Origin: Daphnia pulex
Lineage: Eukaryota; Arthropoda; Branchiopoda; Diplostraca; Daphniidae
Direction of reading: 5' to 3'
Assembly (NCBI RefSeq): GCF_021134715.1
Contig: NC_060022.1
Span: 3,291,001 to 3,355,000, forward strand
DNA length: 64,000 nucleotides
Part shown: one piece after another, positions 14,740 through 25,129 of the stretch
How the letters are laid out: each line of letters starts with the position of its first letter
Position numbering within the stretch: the stretch's first letter is position 1
The notes under the pieces: model-generated
Database searches by the model: none
What the model was told of the DNA's origin: nothing
The model's input: the letters and a program-made list of their open reading frames with translations, nothing else
Made by a program: the position numbers and the translations under genes

Positions 14740-16638
14740 CAAAAGAGAAAATTGGGTGGAAGGAGGAAGGAAAAAAAGTATGTGCCGCTCTCTTGACCCG
14801 ACCATCCGGATCATCCGCGTCCTCCCTTATTTAAAAAAGAAATCCTCCAACGACACTAATCCATAAAAGAAATGTCTTTAAATTATATAGACAAATGAGT
14901 GAGAGAGGAAGAAGAATTTATTTGACCCGACGAAAAGTCTCAGTTAATTACTGGAATGTGCCAAGACTCCGCCTAGTTTCCGTGGGTGGCACACAAGCAA
15001 CAAACAAACAAAAAAAAGTGTAGATGATACCGAACCGGATTTCTGAAAAATCCCGCTGCATTTTAGTTCAGATTTTTATTTCTTTTTTTCCTTTTTTTGA
15101 AAATGCTTTGTAGCTGGAGGGGGGAAGAGGATATTTGGCTGCCCGCTGCCCAGCTGAGATAGTGCATGCACACCGAGTATACTATACGCAATAAAAAAAT
15201 TAAACGTGATGTCTTATCACCCCGCTCTCTGTACGAGTGTAACACTTCCTTATGCCTTGGCCGTCTCGTCGTATCCCGGGGTGCAGCTAAACGCCCAGCA
15301 GCAGCTTCATCTCGTGTTCCCCACCTAATGGGCACAGGATGATGCGTTCCAAAGGTGCAAAGTCGCCTGTTAACAAATCGTTAGCTAACCATTTCTGGCT
15401 GAGCTCAGGCTGAGCTGCGTTGTTGGCTGTATAAAATGAATAATGGCGCGAGTGGCATGTTATTTGAACAGGTGGGAGAAAGGAGAAACCAAATGAAATG
15501 CGAAACGACAACGGAAAACAGTCAAAACATGACGAAGAATGATAATTTCTGTCGAAAAATTTGAACGGCTATCTCATTCACGTCAGCGGCCAGCACTGTA
15601 TAGTTGCGTTACCCAGGTCTATAAGCTCACACTTCCTATTCCTGTAGTTAATTGCGCGCACCATTTCCCCTTCTCGTCTTCGTTTCCGTTTCCGGTTTCT
15701 GTGAACAGCAAAAAAAAACGGGGAAAAAATTAAAAAAAGGGAGGACGACCAGCAGCACGTAGCAAATGAATTCCATACTTCAATGGTTTAGTCACGGTTT
15801 TGCCAGCCAAATCACCTGCTTGCCGTTTTTTTTTTTATTATGGCTCGGCTTTAAATCAATTGCGCAACGTAGAATAAACAATTCCACATTATATCTTTGT
15901 ATACAAGGGTTTTCCCCAATGTTTTTTCAAGGATTTCGTGGGTGATAAAGAAAACCTTAGGAGGAAGATGCAATGAAATTGGTTAAACTATTAATATTTT
16001 TTTTTCCAGTGGGCATTATATAAAAATCGTATGAAGCTTTTGTTTGGCCAAAACCGGAATCTGCGACTTGGCCTTTAGGAAAATGGGAGTACGAAAATAA
16101 AAAGATGAGACAGACCGAGGAGAATTCCCAACGCAACGCAGCAGAGAAGAAGTGAGTCAATCCATTAATTACAGAGCTCGCTAGAAGCTCGCGGCGAAAA
16201 TAGCCAGCATGAAACTAACAAATCGTGTAAATGAGAGCAGACTCACTACTGCACTATTGCACGACGTCCCAAAACGAAACAAAAACAAAAAAAAAGGACA
16301 GCTCATCTTTAAATAACCAGAATTTCATTATAAAGACACGGGGGAAGAAGAAGAAAAGATAAACAACAGCACACACATAATACAAGAAAAAAAAAGAGAC
16401 TAATCTGATACCGGGGCCTTATAATAGATGAATAGTAGAACACATTCAATGATATTATTAAATTGTAGTATGCGAAGACCAATAAATAAAGGAGGGCAAA
16501 CTATACGAGAACATTTTTTTTTTTTACTAAGGGCTATCGCACAAAATGAGGAATTCGCTGGTGGCAACTGAAGATCAGACGAGGATGAGAAGCAGGGAGA
16601 GATTCCAAAATTCTCCCGTTTCCAGGTAATCCCGAAAT

Positions 16639-19340
16639 CTAAACGTCATCAAAGAAATTTCGTGGCGGTCCGCTGCGCGTGTAACTGGAACGATAGTCGG
16701 ACGACCCTGTCACAGAAGTCGCCGGTGTGGAACCAACGTCGTCGCCGATTCTCCGACTGGCCTGCATGAAAAGCTGATCGTATCGATCATCTTCATTGCT
16801 CATGTTGTCGGATGTAGAGCCGAACAGCTCCGAGCGTGACGATTCTCGCTTTACTAGTAAACCTGTTCCATTTGTTTCAACGATAGTTGTTCATCCGAAC
16901 GTCGTGTTAAATTGTGCGTATGCTTTACCTCCAGTTTCACGAACGCGCTCGGCTCGAGAGGAACTGCTGGCAACTTCGACATTTCGACGCCGGGATTCAT
17001 TATCTTCAGCTCTCTGACGCCTCCGCTTCTCTACAACAGTTTCAAAATGATTTTTGAGCCAACATACGAAACGAGTGAATTCGTGAATCCCAGCTAGTTT
17101 TACCCCGTTTGATAAGCTCTCTTCCTTCGTCAGACAGATCGGCCGTAATATCATCTTCGTCGTCTACAAATTGTTGGAATCCGATGAAGGTAAGGAAGCG
17201 AGCTCCCAGTGAGAAGTAAGTGGCCAGACATAGTCCCAAAATGGCCATGGGGAAGTAGATGTTGAAACCGTCCGAAATGATGGGCAACACATCCATATGC
17301 CCCATTATCTGAAGCGAAACGAAGGGGAGATTTACTCGAACGAAACAAACACGTAACGCAAGAGTCCTTATCTAACGGGCTACTTACTTGAGTGTAATAG
17401 GTTTCCATCAGACGAGCTTTGATAATGTGGCTGTCCATGTGAATTAGGCCAAGGAAGTTCAAACACATGGGCGGAGTCAACCGACAAAGTAACATTCCCG
17501 AAAAGATCAAACTATACTCGTCCGTTTGGTGGTGGGGTGCCAGATAATACAAATTGAGTACGCGAATTTTCAACACTGTCGAATAAGCGCACACGCACAT
17601 GTAGGCGATGGTGGCAATTGAAACCAGCTACAAGTTGAAAAAATGTGACCGTTAATACACCAACAGATTTTAGATGAATAAAAAGAATATAAACTAACTT
17701 CAATCGAGAGGTAGTCATAGTATTCCTTGGCCAAGTTGACAAAAATAGCAAAGATGGACAAAACAGGACTGGCATTGAAAAAAGTCAACTCGGACCACAC
17801 CACCAACACTGACAGAAGGGCCAAAATCATTGCCAATCCTTGACAGACATACCGTCTCAGTAAGCATTTCCAGTACCACTCTGTTGCCATGGTAAGAAAT
17901 AAAGTGTGCTATGAGAATACGACGCTTAAAAGTCACGCGTTTATCTTTTACCTATCGTGGGACTGCGAATCCGTGCTACCCAGTTGGGTTGACTCGATTC
18001 AAATGATGGCTTAAAGTAGTGTTCATGGCTACCGATATTACGGTGGACATCTTCAAGATCAAAGATTTTCTCCACCAAATTATGCCACTGGGTTTCTGTT
18101 CTGTGCTGACGTTGTAGTGCTCGGATCACCTGGTATAAGTAATAATTAATGTTATACAGTTTCGGATCCAAGATTGTATTACTGCAAACTAAACCTTACT
18201 TGTCTGTGTAGGCGAACAAGTGACTTCTCATTTAGATCGCTATCGTTCATCTGATTGGTGTTGACAGACTTACGCTTCATGCGCTCTCGCCATTCCAGTG
18301 GCAATTTGTCAGAAATGGTTTCGGCATTCTTTCGCAATGGGTCACTAGGTGGAATGCGATTCAGTGCGACCTGAAGCGCCTCTAAATAGTCTTCCAAGTT
18401 TTCTTCAGCCTCACTCTTTTCAGCATTCAATTTGGCTGCTTTGAAATAGAGGCGGGACAGCAAAGGCCCTGGGATAGCACTGCGCCATACAGAGCGAGGG
18501 ATGTCCACGAGACCATACCCTAGCAACAAAACTAACCAAAATAGCCCCCAAGTATTGCTTGCGGATGCTGCGATCGCTTTTAGTTTTGGCCTGGAACATT
18601 CAATCTATGAAGTATAATTCTAACAGAAATATTGAATTTTGTACGAAAAAAATTACCAATCAAATTCAAAGTCCGGTTTAGCCGCTAGATATATAATAAG
18701 AATAGTGGCTATTACGAGGTAGCTCCCGTAATAAATTGCGTTATCGATCAAAGAGGACCTCAACTTTCCTTTGACAGTGAAATCTCCAGCTTTAGTGTAC
18801 GACTGCATGAGTGGTAGCACAAACCTTAAAATTTTAACAAAAAATGACCAATTACTTGAAAATCATAATATTTAAAACACAAGTCATCTTACCATGTAAG
18901 GAATTGTGAAGTCCAGTACAGTACTCTCCACAGCTGCGGCAGCACATTTTCTGGCACATAGCTCCAGGGGAGCTTGCAGACTGAAGTTTCATTTGATGGG
19001 ATAACATGAGGAACTGCTGTTGTGCTTGCATTTGCAGTATCATTCAGTTGTGGTTCTTCGATAAAAGAAGTATGTTCCTGAATACATTGCCTGTAGGCAG
19101 TCTGCGATAAGAAAGTAGTTTCTATGGTATTAGCAGTCATAAATAATCAATGGAATCGAGACTTACCGATGTAACATCCAGAGGTAAAATGAATATGATA
19201 AGGAATGAAAAATACCATGCTATTAACACAGAGAGAGTGACTATTATATGGTGCCTGAACCAGTCTCCATAACGGTACAAAATAGAAGCTGCAACAATAA
19301 ATGTGCAAGTAATTTCTGTGACAAGAGGTCCAACAGTCAT
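16639..19340 (-). CDS. LMBRD2: LMBR1 domain-containing protein 2
   Basis: Multi-pass membrane protein of the LMBR1/LIMR family, 687 aa (human about 695). Minus-strand coding exons: 19340-19167, 19101-18893, 18824-18657, 18590-18200, 18129-17952, 17880-17699, 17627-17388, 17308-17104, 17030-16929, 16853-16639; all junctions keep frame. The N terminus is luminal, then a helix ends in the family block [13 protein letters not shown] charged cytosolic loop (exons 4-5) and a second bundle of helices follow. The C-terminal block GHMDV...DGFNIYFP and GFQQFV is typical of LMBRD2, with a basic, serine-rich cytosolic tail after it. The ATG lies 8 nt after the BBIP1 stop, in an acceptable context (A at -3), with no strong acceptor between, so both are probably on one mRNA. 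Family members are linked to beta-adrenergic receptor signalling in mammals; function here is inferred. Confidence 0.95.
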
Positions 19341-19348
19341 TTTGGGTT

Positions 19349-19576
19349 TTATTCGCTTGACAAGTTTGAGTTCATCAACTTTTCCTCTGCTTCCTTCTGC
19401 AACTTTTCTAATTTCTCAATGGTAAATGTTTTTAGAGGGAGAAGTTTTGGTTTGCAAAAAGTCCAGTTCAGTTTTGACTCTTCGTGTTGACGGCGATGGG
19501 AGATTCGCCCCTTTACCGATTGTAGTAAAGTTTCCAAAGTTTCTGACGTATCAGTTGTAGAAATTGATTCCTCCAT
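19349..19576 (-). CDS. BBIP1: BBSome-interacting protein 1 (BBS18)
   Basis: Small BBSome subunit, 75 aa. The core CKPKLLPLKTFTIEKLEKLQ matches the conserved segment of BBIP1/BBIP10, followed by a short helical Glu/Lys tail. Human BBIP1 is of similar size. The BBSome carries membrane proteins to and from cilia. It is an uninterrupted single coding exon; a good acceptor (gacttttag) lies just upstream, so a 5' non-coding exon is likely. If that acceptor is used, the exon opens with ATG CTT GTC TGA, a three-codon upstream ORF whose stop overlaps the BBIP1 ATG. The BBIP1 stop is 8 nt before the LMBRD2 ATG on the same strand. The N terminus before the core is divergent. I am confident of the family from the core, less so of regulation. 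Confidence 0.88.
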   Translation of the reverse strand: MEESISTTDTSETLETLLQSVKGRISHRRQHEESKLNWTFCKPKLLPLKTFTIEKLEKLQKEAEEKLMNSNLSSE

Positions 19577-19639: not shown

Positions 19640-22600
19640 GCAATCTCCCAAAGCCCTGTTACACTAACACGACACGTCAATATATAACAGCTGAGACTGA
19701 ACGATGACGTCATGAAAAACAGATTCAAAGATTTTTCAGAACTTGACACGGTTGCACTTTTTAAAAAGCGTGAAAAATTTTGACTGAATAATTTAAACCA
19801 TAGATTGAAGAACCTTTAAAATTTAAAAAATAAAGCGATTATGTAATTTATGATCTGTATTCACCATTCACATAAATAACTGAAGTAATAAATAAACTGC
19901 CATCCTGGGAGTTCCGACTCGGTTCCTGAATTCCTTCGATTCTATTTGAATCTCGTTATTTTTATACGTTGCTATTATGCAATATACCATTCCTACTAAG
20001 TCACACTGTCTGTGTCAGACGTAAAGTCTTTTGGAGAAGTTTTAAGCTCACGACAGTTGGCATGATTTCACAAAGATTGTCTGTCTTATTCTTAGTCATT
20101 GTAACGTAAATCTTTTGAAACAAAGCTCAAACTACTGGACAAGCAAGTGTTGTCCTTATAAAAGAACTCGGCAATAAAAATCACAAGTCATTGCTGAGAG
20201 CACCAGTTTTAAATTTAATTCTAATAATATACACCGAGTTTGGCTCTGGCACAAACATTAATTTTGTATCCTTGTGCTCATTGGAACCAAAACAAAATTC
20301 TACGATTATTGCGTCTACCATTTAGTCTGTCTGTGTTTATTAGATGAAAACCTAAATCATGATTTTGCCATGTAGCACCCAAGTCATCTTCAGTAAACAC
20401 AAATCGTAGCTTTTCTTATAACTTCGTCTCGCAGTGAAGCGCTGACAATTATAGGTAATTTATAAATTACCAATAAAAAATCTTCGTAGTAAATTAATTT
20501 TTTATTAGGTGTTAAAAGTCGGTGATAATTGCTTATTTAGTTATACAGTTACTATAGGTCGAGCCAGTAACACAACAGCATGACAACATAAGAAATATGT
20601 ACGTTAGGGAAGATAATTGCGTTTAGATGAAAACATTTCAAGGAACATCAACACCATATTGAATGATTTATACAAACAAGTATCACACACTTTCTTCCGT
20701 CGAATTGGATTCGTACCGCAAGTTCGGCGCAATTTTCAAACTCGTTGATCGCTTCCGTGTCACGTCTACAGCTATCTATAATTTACGCATGTGTAATATA
20801 TAACAACTACACGTCTGTGCCAAGAGGTTTATAGCCTATTAGCCTACTGTCAAATCACAGCACCTCATAATACCATAAACTATAATTGCCAAATTGAGTA
20901 AATATTATGCACGTAATGCTAGGAACCTTTTTGTGAACACCGCTTTGAAAGAAATTGTAAAATAAGAAACTTACTCCCGCGTGATGAATCATTATGCAAA
21001 TAATAAATGGCAAATATTGTGTTTTTAACAAAATGAAGAGCATTAATAATACTACCGTTATTTGGCACGTTTATACAGGGCAATTTTCAAGACATTTTTA
21101 AAATTTATTTCCGTGTTTATTCATTTGTTATGGCGCTTTTCTAGCTTAAGTGAGAGTCGTGACCGTTTGACGGTAAACTCGCTGACGCGGAGCCGTAAGA
21201 GAATTCTTTGAAGTAACTGGTCCACATGCGGTTTGAAGCCTAGATAAATAAACCACAAACAAATAAAAAGATATAGGTAATACTGAGAATAAACATTTTC
21301 AATGGAAAAACAGTGCATCACGGTTTTTATTCATTAAAGGGGAAGCGCATCATCAACACAATTATTTGTGATTATTTGTTGGTACTATCGAGAAAGTGAG
21401 GGTGTTAAATGTTTAACCACAGGTTGTAAACCTCGGCAGAGAAAAAGCGTTCTACTATCATGTTGTACGACAAGTGATGTTTTAAAAAATCACGGCATTC
21501 AGTTTACAATAAAGTGATAAATGTGCAATACACTAGCTTTGTCGCTAGATTTTTATCTCTTTAACTTAGTTTGATAATGTTGATCCTAACTAATATCCCT
21601 TGGATTTGAATTTACGCTAATCTGCGTAGAGTAAAATCTTCATCATGGCACAAGCGCAAAATAGTAGCGCTAAGAAAAAGATGACGTCGATAGCCGAAAA
21701 ACCACGAAGAATTCGTCCATGAACTGCGGCAGCCACAGTCGAAAAGCGTAGTCGGCAAACAAAAAGTAAAGTTAGTTTACAGTTCGCGGTGACGAAAAGT
21801 CGTTTATCCTGTATGAAGATTACTCATGCTGCTGCCTGTACAGTGTGAAATAAATCGGCGCTAGCTTTTCTGGTCTTACGATTAACTTCTGGTCACGAGT
21901 TACCAAACATAACATCCTTGGAAGGATGTTATTGATCTCTGACATGTTCAGAATGCTCTCTGTCCATAACAGCTAACATCTGTACGGCATCGCATTTGGC
22001 GGGATACAAATTTTTTGTCTTTCCAAGGACAAACTCCGGCTAAATTTGAAGTTCTTTGGTAATGACCCATCAGGCTAAATCATGGGCAAATAATTTTAGG
22101 ACCTTCGTTTAACTACCAAAATAAGATCCCGCTGGGCGGTGGCCGCACGAGCCAGTCATCAACATGTCGGTCAACCATCAGATTTCAGCTCGCAAATGAA
22201 ATAAACCAGGATAGATGGTAAAACTAAGTCTAATATTAGCCTAGTGCGAGAAAAACTTATTCCTGAAATAATTTCTCGGTTGGTTTCGTGCCAGCAACAT
22301 AGTGTGGACTACACACACTGTGAAATCCTATAAATAACATTAAGGTTGAATGGCATAACTCCTTGACGTAACATGGTTCGCTTATCGTCCCTGCTTATCT
22401 GAATTACGTTGAATATGCCTTTTGATGTTTATGATGAGAATAAGCGTGCCATGTTTGTGCGCTTTTGGAGGAGGATTCCGAGAGTTAGTTGAAGACCATG
22501 ACAAAGCTGAAGGCGATAAGATGTGGCAGTGTAACAACATGTTATCAATTTATTTCTTTGCCATTGATTTGCTTTTGGTTGTGATGGCAGAACAAATTAT

Positions 22601-22648: not shown

Positions 22649-23931
22649 TCAAGATTTGGTATTCTTTTTCTCGTCTAGCGGTTCATACCCTTCATTAATG
22701 CGTTCCTTAAACTTCAGATATTCCCGTTTCCGGTCAAAGTGTTTAACCTGCAAAAAAGAAAAGAAAAAAAAGGTTATACAAAAAAATTCAGAGATCCCAG
22801 ACTCTCTGACTTGCTTAACAACTTTAAATATAGGACACAAACACAGAGGTAATAAACTGAAGAATCCGCTCGATCCAAAAATATACCCCAACCGCCGTGT
22901 TTGAAAAGAAACAGGTATTTCTTTTTGCTTTGAACCTTTCGTCATCCCTGTCCTCTGTGATTCAAGTCCCACAATTTTCCCTTCGTACCCGCACGTTTTG
23001 AAAGCGGGCAGTCTATTTCGGAAATCTATTTCTAGAAATCCATAAAACTGTATATCCCTAATATTGTCGACAGCAGCTGCATTCGCAAATCTCTGGTCCG
23101 AAAAAAGATTTACAAATGGAAAATCAAAGAGGAATCTGAAATCTATTTCCTAAATTTTTCGGTCGACATCGGCACGATCTGCGTCCTAAAAAGAGGAGGT
23201 GGTGGGCTGGCGGAAGGGGGAAGGAACGGCCGATGGGAACTGAGGCAATTCTAAATTTAAAGCCGGATACAAACCAACGTCATCCGGCTCATCAAGCGGT
23301 TTGCGCACACGTAGCGGGGAGGTAGTACCCCTATCTGAAGGAAGCTTTTTTGAGACTTGAAATAGTTTGTCAATCTGCAATTGGCAACTGGGCGTAAAAT
23401 GGGCCGTGATGAGCGACGCAAACAATGCAAACCCGACCTTTCCCTAAAAATCAAAAGCACCGATGGCTGTTGTCTTCTTTATTATTATCCATTTCGCTGA
23501 TGTTGGCAATATACACCGTAACGGCTGCTCTCTTTCTCGTGGATTCCCCGTGTGTTGATGCTCTGTTGGATATTTTCTGCCTGGGTCGCCGAAAAATTTT
23601 CTATATTTTTATCTTCCAAGAAATTTGCAGCTTTACAGAGTTAACAGCCATTGTCTACCGCAGTTCTGTTCCTGGCACAAAAATGGACAAATCTGTCACC
23701 GCCGTCCTTCATCTACGACTATTTTGGCTCATATTTTTCAACTAAAATTTAAAGTTTAGTTTGTAAAAAACTCTAAATTGCACTTACCCATTGACTCGGA
23801 CAGGTAGTTTCGTAGAGTGTCCTTACTTCCACGCACTTTTCAATTTGATCGCCGCTCTTATCTAAGCATTCCCAGTAGCGATCACGGGAATCCCAGCATT
23901 TCTGTCGTTTTTCTTTATCTGGAAAGGACAT
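22649..23931 (-). CDS. COA6: Cytochrome c oxidase assembly factor 6
   Basis: Mitochondrial intermembrane-space copper-handling factor for complex IV assembly (COX2/CuA site), 80 aa. Minus-strand exons 23931-23788 and 22747-22649, phase 0 junction. The first exon has no complete ORF of its own but gives MSFPDKEKRQKCWDSRDRYW and a good donor (TGG|GTAAGT). Cysteines at 12, 22, 33 and 44 form the CX9C...CX10C twin motif characteristic of COA6. The tail KHFDRKREYLKFKERI also matches the family. The single intron is about 1 kb, large for this window. No mitochondrial presequence is seen or expected for twin-CX9C proteins imported through the MIA40 pathway. Confidence 0.93.
23186..23450 (-). other. 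Unassigned open reading frame within the COA6 intron
   Basis: An open minus-strand frame of about 85 codons (includes DRGTTSPLRVRKPLDEPDDV) ends at 23186 and lies in the COA6 intron. No domain was recognised. No upstream exon joins convincingly, though acceptor-like AG sites occur just 5' of it. It could be an alternative exon, a nested gene or chance. Confidence 0.2.
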
Positions 23932-23939
23932 GTTGCCGT

Positions 23940-25129
23940 TCTTGAAGTATACACGCGATTGTAGGACTCACTCAACGTTATTTGTCAAAGTCGATTATTG
24001 TCTGAAATACGGCACGTGTAAATCGCTCTGGGTTAGTTTCAATGTTAAAAAAAGAACTATACGATTAATATCCACATAAACAATTGAAAACACTTGATAA
24101 CTATTCCCTTGTCATAGAGCCCAAAAATATTCTACTGCATAAAAGGCTTTGAATTAAGGTAAGTGAACTAGTATTGAATCAGACGAATGATCTGGGCGAC
24201 CGATTGGTGTAAAGACCTCTGGCCAACTGACGCGCAGTTCCTTTGCAGCCACAGTATATACACTTCAGATCGGCAAAATCGTAAATGTATTTCAACGAGC
24301 CCGTTCTCCCATTATTGCCTCTCATTTTTCATGCCATAGGTCCCGCCCCATCCAACAGCTTATGAATGAAAGGGTCCGAAGTAAACACCTCCCTTTTTTT
24401 TCATTTTTCACCTTTCCCATTTGGCGCGCAGCTGTTTTTATTTTTGCCGTTGTTGCTACATAAAGTCCGAAATGCACGATTTCTTTCAAGAAGTGAAAAT
24501 AGACGCAAATACATCATCATAAGTGAATGGACTCAGGCAAAGCTTCATTTATGACTCTGTTTCCTACAAAATAGAGCAACTAATTAAATAGAATTAAATA
24601 GTCTACCTAAGTAATTCCACGATTATACCATGATTACTTAATATCCAGAAAAATTTCAAGACATACACTATATATAATCATTTTTGAATGAACTATGATT
24701 TAAAGAAATATGTACTATTATCAGAAATGCAGCAAACTATGTTTCAATTCCATACATCTAAGTTTTCTAACAGTTGTTTTTCTGATTAAAAGTTCACTGG
24801 TAATTCAAGATCACTAGTAAACCATCAATTTTTTTATAAGTTGAGATAAAAAATTATTTACCCTGTTTTCTTTTTTAAATCACAGAAAATTCTAAGTTGT
24901 TTACGAGTTTTACCTTTAAATGTTTTCCAGTCCAACTCCAAACAGAGCGGATTTTCGACAACCGACAAAAATCCTTTTCGTCTGCTGAACAAAATCAACG
25001 CACTGCCAAATTTTTAAAATTCAATATTCTTGCGTTGTGAACTTGTGATTTGCGAAAAAAAATTAGTTTTCGGAAATTAAAAAAGTCGTAAAAATTATAG
25101 AAAATTCTTTTTATTTCTTAATTTCACAT
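23940..25129. other. Intergenic region between COA6 and RNASEH2A
   Basis: AT-rich, no coding exon found. The COA6 promoter is expected at the left end and the RNASEH2A 3' UTR at the right end. Confidence 0.4.

Follow-up and report, generated by a model that had tools for sequence, protein, structure and literature searches.

Dicistronic genes are uncommon but well documented in animals, and the pair described here, BBIP1 and LMBRD2 of Daphnia pulex, probably adds to the known cases. For Drosophila, FlyBase release 6.04 lists 159 dicistronic pairs, and at loci that give polycistronic transcripts only, the distance from the first stop codon to the second start codon ranges from -34 to 319 nt (PMC4528330). 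In the Drosophila pair sloth1/sloth2, the gap between the ORFs is 5 nt, ORF 1 begins in a non-optimal context and ORF 2 begins with CAAAATG, which the authors call optimal; their reporters favour leaky scanning, in which ribosomes pass the first start codon and initiate at the second (PMC9681215). The subunits of molybdopterin synthase are encoded by another conserved bicistronic pair, MOCS2A-MOCS2B (PMC2276209). Outside the animals, bicistronic genes of green algae combine a weak ORF 1 context with a stronger ORF 2 context, few AUGs and generally short inter-ORF regions (PMC11892635).

We analysed a 64,000-nt stretch of the D. pulex assembly (hereafter the window), in which the BBIP1 and LMBRD2 ORFs follow one another on the minus strand. 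We are fairly confident that the two genes share an mRNA in some form, and we give a probability of about 0.6 to the fuller reading in which leaky scanning on that common mRNA is the main route to LMBRD2. From the genomic sequence we infer, as likely, a single mRNA, its start site and, as the source of LMBRD2, leaky scanning in preference to reinitiation or an internal start. A preliminary description of the locus had already proposed a dicistronic transcript. The anatomy of the locus and two control pairs from the same genome fit that proposal, but it did not mention an AATAAA that overlaps the end of the BBIP1 ORF and offered no route by which the second ORF would be translated.

Among the matches listed in our search, no title announces an earlier description of BBIP1-LMBRD2, and neither LMBR nor Bbip appears in the main text of the FlyBase dicistronic study (PMC4528330).

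Two conserved genes on either side of a short spacer

The first ORF, BBIP1 (BBS18/BBIP10), occupies positions 19576-19349 of the minus strand and consists of 75 codons plus TAA, with no intron. Its identity, as named in the preliminary description, is well founded. The family profile PF14777 (BBIP10) matches residues 32-68 of the protein with E=3.6e-12 (46.1 bits, against a gathering cut-off of 26), and the matching PDB chains are Bardet-Biedl syndrome 18 protein (E=2.6e-7) and BBSome-interacting protein 1 (E=5.8e-6). Alignment of the Daphnia protein with the PDB BBS18 chain reveals the common pattern CKPKLLPLK..T.EKLEK, which on an approximate mapping would run from the last part of the human U-bolt into the beginning of the helix that follows. 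In human BBIP1, the U-bolt clamps BBS4 to BBS8 (PMC7018512).

BBIP1 was found at a single place in the assembly (133,188,837 bases in 13 contigs), both by protein search (E<=0.001) and by family search (E<=1). It appears to have BBSome partners, since matches to two further subunits occur elsewhere in the assembly: one partial match to BBS2_N (E=8.7e-6, C3:7938715-7938876) and five pieces of the BBL5/BBS5 family (best E=6.9e-17, C8:7194171-7195385). BBS2 is probably retained in D. pulex; Drosophila has been reported to lack BBS2 and BBS7 (PMC5700813).

The second ORF, LMBRD2, has a coding region at 19340-16639 of the minus strand, with ten predicted exons that encode 690 aa and a TAG ending at 16639. 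A splice-aware assembly predicts the exon ends from the genomic sequence alone, and places exons 1 to 5 at 19340-19167, 19101-18893, 18824-18657, 18590-18200 and 18129-17952, and exons 6 to 10 at 17880-17699, 17627-17388, 17308-17104, 17030-16929 and 16862-16639 (all on the minus strand). The nine introns are uniformly GT-AG and 65-79 nt long. A single LMBR1 match covers profile positions 3-510 of 510 (E=5.2e-200), so the 690-aa model holds a full-length domain. At least eight LMBR1-family pieces occur in the assembly at E<=0.001, six of them here and two at a second locus, on contig C8. The name LMBRD2, as opposed to LMBR1 or LMBRD1, is one that we assume within this family, following the preliminary description. 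BBIP1 and LMBRD2 both look like real genes by these matches.

Direct reading places the BBIP1 stop codon 8 nt upstream of the LMBRD2 ATG (19340) on the same strand, exactly as described previously; the intercistronic spacer, AACCCAAA, spans 19348-19341 of the minus strand. It had also been argued that no promoter or splice acceptor has room between the two ORFs. This is true of 8 nt but trivial, as either element could sit within the BBIP1 ORF. The nearness of the letters alone likewise means little, because a stop codon followed within 10 nt by an ATG is common in raw sequence: on the plus strand of the window, 575 of 3,156 stop codons have some ATG, in any frame, 0-10 nt downstream. The unusual feature is instead that conserved genes lie on both sides of the gap, on one strand. 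Tandem conserved ORFs of this kind are what is expected of an animal dicistronic gene, and here they are identified by the BBIP10 and LMBR1 Pfam matches. There is no space between BBIP1 and LMBRD2 for a 3' UTR, a promoter and a 5' UTR. Searches of bacterial/archaeal and viral contigs found no relative, as expected.

Start contexts and the route to LMBRD2

We propose a single gene with BBIP1 and LMBRD2 as its cistrons. One transcript would arise from a promoter near 19,655-19,700 and consist of a short leader, BBIP1 and then the spliced LMBRD2 coding sequence. Scanning ribosomes would reach the BBIP1 ATG in a poor context, where a fraction would initiate and produce BBIP1. The remaining ribosomes would traverse 236 nt with one weak in-frame ATG and would then initiate at LMBRD2.

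The start contexts differ in the direction that leaky scanning calls for, with a poor context at ORF 1 and a strong one at ORF 2. The BBIP1 ATG at 19576 is preceded by a C at position -3 (TGTCTGATGG), while the LMBRD2 ATG at 19340 lies in the context CCCAAAATGA, with CAAA before the ATG (CAAAATG); both were graded against the fly optimum given in PMC9681215, which may not be that of D. pulex. Counting both strands of the window, 25 of 2,135 ATGs are preceded by CAAA. Given this layout, part of the ribosomes could pass BBIP1 and initiate at LMBRD2.

Along the 236 nt from the BBIP1 start to the LMBRD2 start there are no out-of-frame ATGs, and the sole further ATG, at 19375-19373 of the minus strand, is in the BBIP1 frame and has a T at -3. 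Such emptiness is rare within the LMBRD2 coding sequence, where 18 of 613 overlapping segments of equal length have no out-of-frame ATG. It is less telling against the window as a whole: when ATGs of all frames are counted, 11.9% of 2,162 stretches of 236 nt contain no more than one. We considered ATG depletion as evidence of selection and withdrew it. The absence of out-of-frame ATGs reveals no selection because 59% of synonymous resamplings of BBIP1, and 50% of shuffles of its own codons, are equally empty.

Reinitiation is another way in which a dicistronic mRNA could deliver LMBRD2, and a short ORF just upstream of BBIP1 bears on it. This three-codon ORF (Met-Leu-Val-stop) lies at 19587-19576 of the minus strand, and the last base of its TGA is the first base of the BBIP1 ATG (TGATGG); it would be part of the mRNA only if the transcription start site permits. 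Ribosomes could reinitiate after BBIP1, whose stop codon is merely 8 nt from the LMBRD2 start, or, having translated the three-codon ORF, they would be unable to initiate at the BBIP1 ATG that its TGA overlaps and would regain competence over the 236 nt to LMBRD2. Regained competence after an upstream ORF is the scheme known from ATF4 and GCN4. However, if the leader is unspliced, the ATG of the three-codon ORF is itself in a weak context (TTTTAGATGC), and the 75 codons of BBIP1 are long for efficient reinitiation. In addition, changes to the ORF 1 start in algae and in fly sloth1/2 favoured leaky scanning (PMC11892635, PMC9681215). We consider reinitiation as the main route to LMBRD2 unlikely.

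An internal ribosome entry site (IRES) in or ahead of the BBIP1 ORF could also bring ribosomes to LMBRD2, and the FlyBase authors consider IRES use perhaps common among fly dicistronic genes (PMC4528330). However, the 411 nt of RNA from 19700 to 19290 are not unusually structured, with a folding z-score of -1.20 and 13 of 100 shuffles as stable, and the start contexts suffice to explain access to LMBRD2. We judge an IRES at this locus highly improbable.

Candidate poly(A), promoter and splice signals

An AATAAA at 19353-19348 of the minus strand, overlapping the BBIP1 stop codon, is a possible poly(A) signal. From 19900 to 16000 the minus strand contains no other AATAAA and no ATTAAA, and beyond LMBRD2 the next minus-strand AATAAA is at 15839. 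The probability that an AATAAA starts between -10 and +40 of a random minus-strand point is 0.054. Cleavage at this AATAAA would sever LMBRD2 near its first codons.

On a dicistronic gene, this signal may yield an additional BBIP1-only mRNA, as at many fly loci. It also accords with two overlapping transcription units, in which the BBIP1 mRNA would be cleaved after the AATAAA and LMBRD2 would either start within the BBIP1 ORF or be spliced past the BBIP1 ATG, making the two genes neighbours that are not co-translated. The fly record lends this arrangement some weight, as only 45 of the 159 dicistronic loci appear exclusively dicistronic for both genes and many also make monocistronic forms (PMC4528330).

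Candidate splice and promoter elements for a separate LMBRD2 transcript can be found, and LMBRD2 could have a transcription start or a splice site within BBIP1. Splicing from a donor-like site at 19864 (score 2.7) to an acceptor-like site with its exon start at 19542 (score 1.6) would excise the BBIP1 ATG, on a rough scale that gives the nine LMBRD2 acceptors values of -0.7 to 4.4. However, the 19542 acceptor is at chance level, because AG sites that score at least 1 occur about six times per kb. A possible acceptor AG with a score of 2.1 (TTTGTTTTCCTGAGACTTTTAG, directly followed by ATG) lies at 19589-19588 of the minus strand, immediately 5' of the three-codon ORF; no donor scoring above 0 was found between 19864 and this site.

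As for a promoter, a DPE-like match at 19331, just beyond the LMBRD2 start, would suit a separate LMBRD2 transcript, with the caveat that this motif turns up 4.7 times per kb. The other matches cluster upstream of both ORFs, at 19712-19681 of the minus strand, and comprise a CRE (TGACGTCA) at 19712, an initiator-like TCAGTC at 19700 and TATATA at 19686; they come from a consensus scan and are not proof of use. The same scan gave no Inr-like or TATA match within the BBIP1 ORF, which is weak evidence because in 236 nt the expected number of each is below one. A promoter inside BBIP1 would also need to fit within 228 nt of conserved coding sequence. Taking these points together, we regard two overlapping units as unlikely and prefer the dicistronic mRNA with leaky scanning.

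A more elaborate version of the dicistronic gene would treat BBIP1 as a regulatory upstream ORF. The three-codon ORF, the poor context of the BBIP1 start and the AATAAA would then act as a switch among a BBIP1-only mRNA, BBIP1 translation and LMBRD2 translation, setting BBSome assembly against LMBRD2 output, for example under stress. We think such a switch quite unlikely.

The 8-nt spacer contains no AG, hence no acceptor lies between the BBIP1 stop and the LMBRD2 start, and we do not favour an operon resolved by trans-splicing. One paper listed for Daphnia and spliced leaders contains, in its accessible part, nothing on trans-splicing in Daphnia; another paper on spliced leaders removed them in the amphipod Parhyale.

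The RFX X-box is expected at ciliary genes, and we scanned for it with a loose and a stricter pattern. Loose matches lie at 20201 and 20040, a distance of 340-500 nt from the proposed promoter on its upstream side, whereas the stretch from 20000 to 19330 has none; the density of the loose pattern is 0.71 per kb per strand. With the stricter pattern, the window holds two matches with at most two mismatches, compared to 2.61 expected, and LMBRD2 intron 5 ends with a one-mismatch site (17883-17896). Across the whole assembly, sites of a near-identical pattern (at most one mismatch) number 1,239 and 1,228 on the two strands, versus 327 and 306 for the reversed control. X-box-like sites are thus about four times commoner than the reversed control genome-wide, and one per 64 kb fits that density.

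The next same-strand gene that we noticed upstream lies at 22649-23967 of the minus strand, with about 3 kb separating it from the region of the proposed BBIP1 promoter. It belongs to the COX6B family (E=3.4e-18, with two ORF pieces joined by eye) and is presumably COA6.

Comparison with known dicistronic pairs

As controls, we looked in the same genome for two of the known fly dicistronic pairs, and both are adjacent in the assembly. The first consists of SMIM4/sloth1 followed, after a gap of 2 nt, by a sloth2/Brawnin-like ORF on the reverse strand at C2:851789-854938. SMIM4 matches UPF0640 (E=1.4e-35), and the second ORF matches DUF4516 (PF14990, E=2.1e-15), a protein that we take to be the sloth2/Brawnin counterpart; we likewise assume that Drosophila sloth1 and sloth2 are the homologues of SMIM4 and C12orf73/Brawnin. 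The second control is MOCS2A followed by MOCS2B on the reverse strand at C10:10881992-10885117, with a gap of 69 nt, where MOCS2A matches ThiS (E=9.7e-7) and MOCS2B matches MoaE in three exon matches.

With ORF starts chosen by hand, both control pairs have T at position -3 of ORF 1 and A at position -3 of ORF 2. In all three pairs, including BBIP1-LMBRD2, ORF 1 is without a purine at -3 and ORF 2 has an A at that position. Three further ATGs precede ORF 2 in each control pair (two of three out of frame in one pair, all three in the other), compared to one, in frame, for BBIP1. The two further pairs suggest that D. pulex uses the dicistronic arrangement as flies do.

If BBIP1-LMBRD2 is confirmed, a conserved ciliary scaffold subunit would join the animal dicistronic genes, and the dose of BBIP1 would be tied to that of LMBRD2. 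There is also a risk for annotation, as pipelines that allow one protein per transcript could miss BBIP1 or place the LMBRD2 start wrongly. A functional link between the BBSome and LMBRD2 is speculation: we know of no physical link between BBIP1 and LMBRD2, and the literature that we searched gives no support for a functional one, with the two names co-occurring just in unrelated table rows of a single paper.

Set beside the known systems, the locus resembles each of them in part. AUG depletion in the green algae is reported across many loci, whereas at BBIP1-LMBRD2 it is not significant, and those examples are from algae, not animals. The products of MOCS2A-MOCS2B are subunits of one enzyme; BBIP1 and LMBRD2 are not known to be linked in this way. 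Sloth1 and Sloth2 are proposed to be paralogous peptides that act on mitochondria (PMC9681215), whereas the Daphnia pair places a 75-aa BBSome subunit before an unrelated 690-aa membrane protein. The 8-nt gap falls within the range of -34 to 319 nt given for the polycistronic-only loci of FlyBase. In its layout, BBIP1-LMBRD2 is like sloth1-sloth2, with a short ORF 1, a gap of a few nucleotides, a poor context at the first start codon and CAAAATG at the second.
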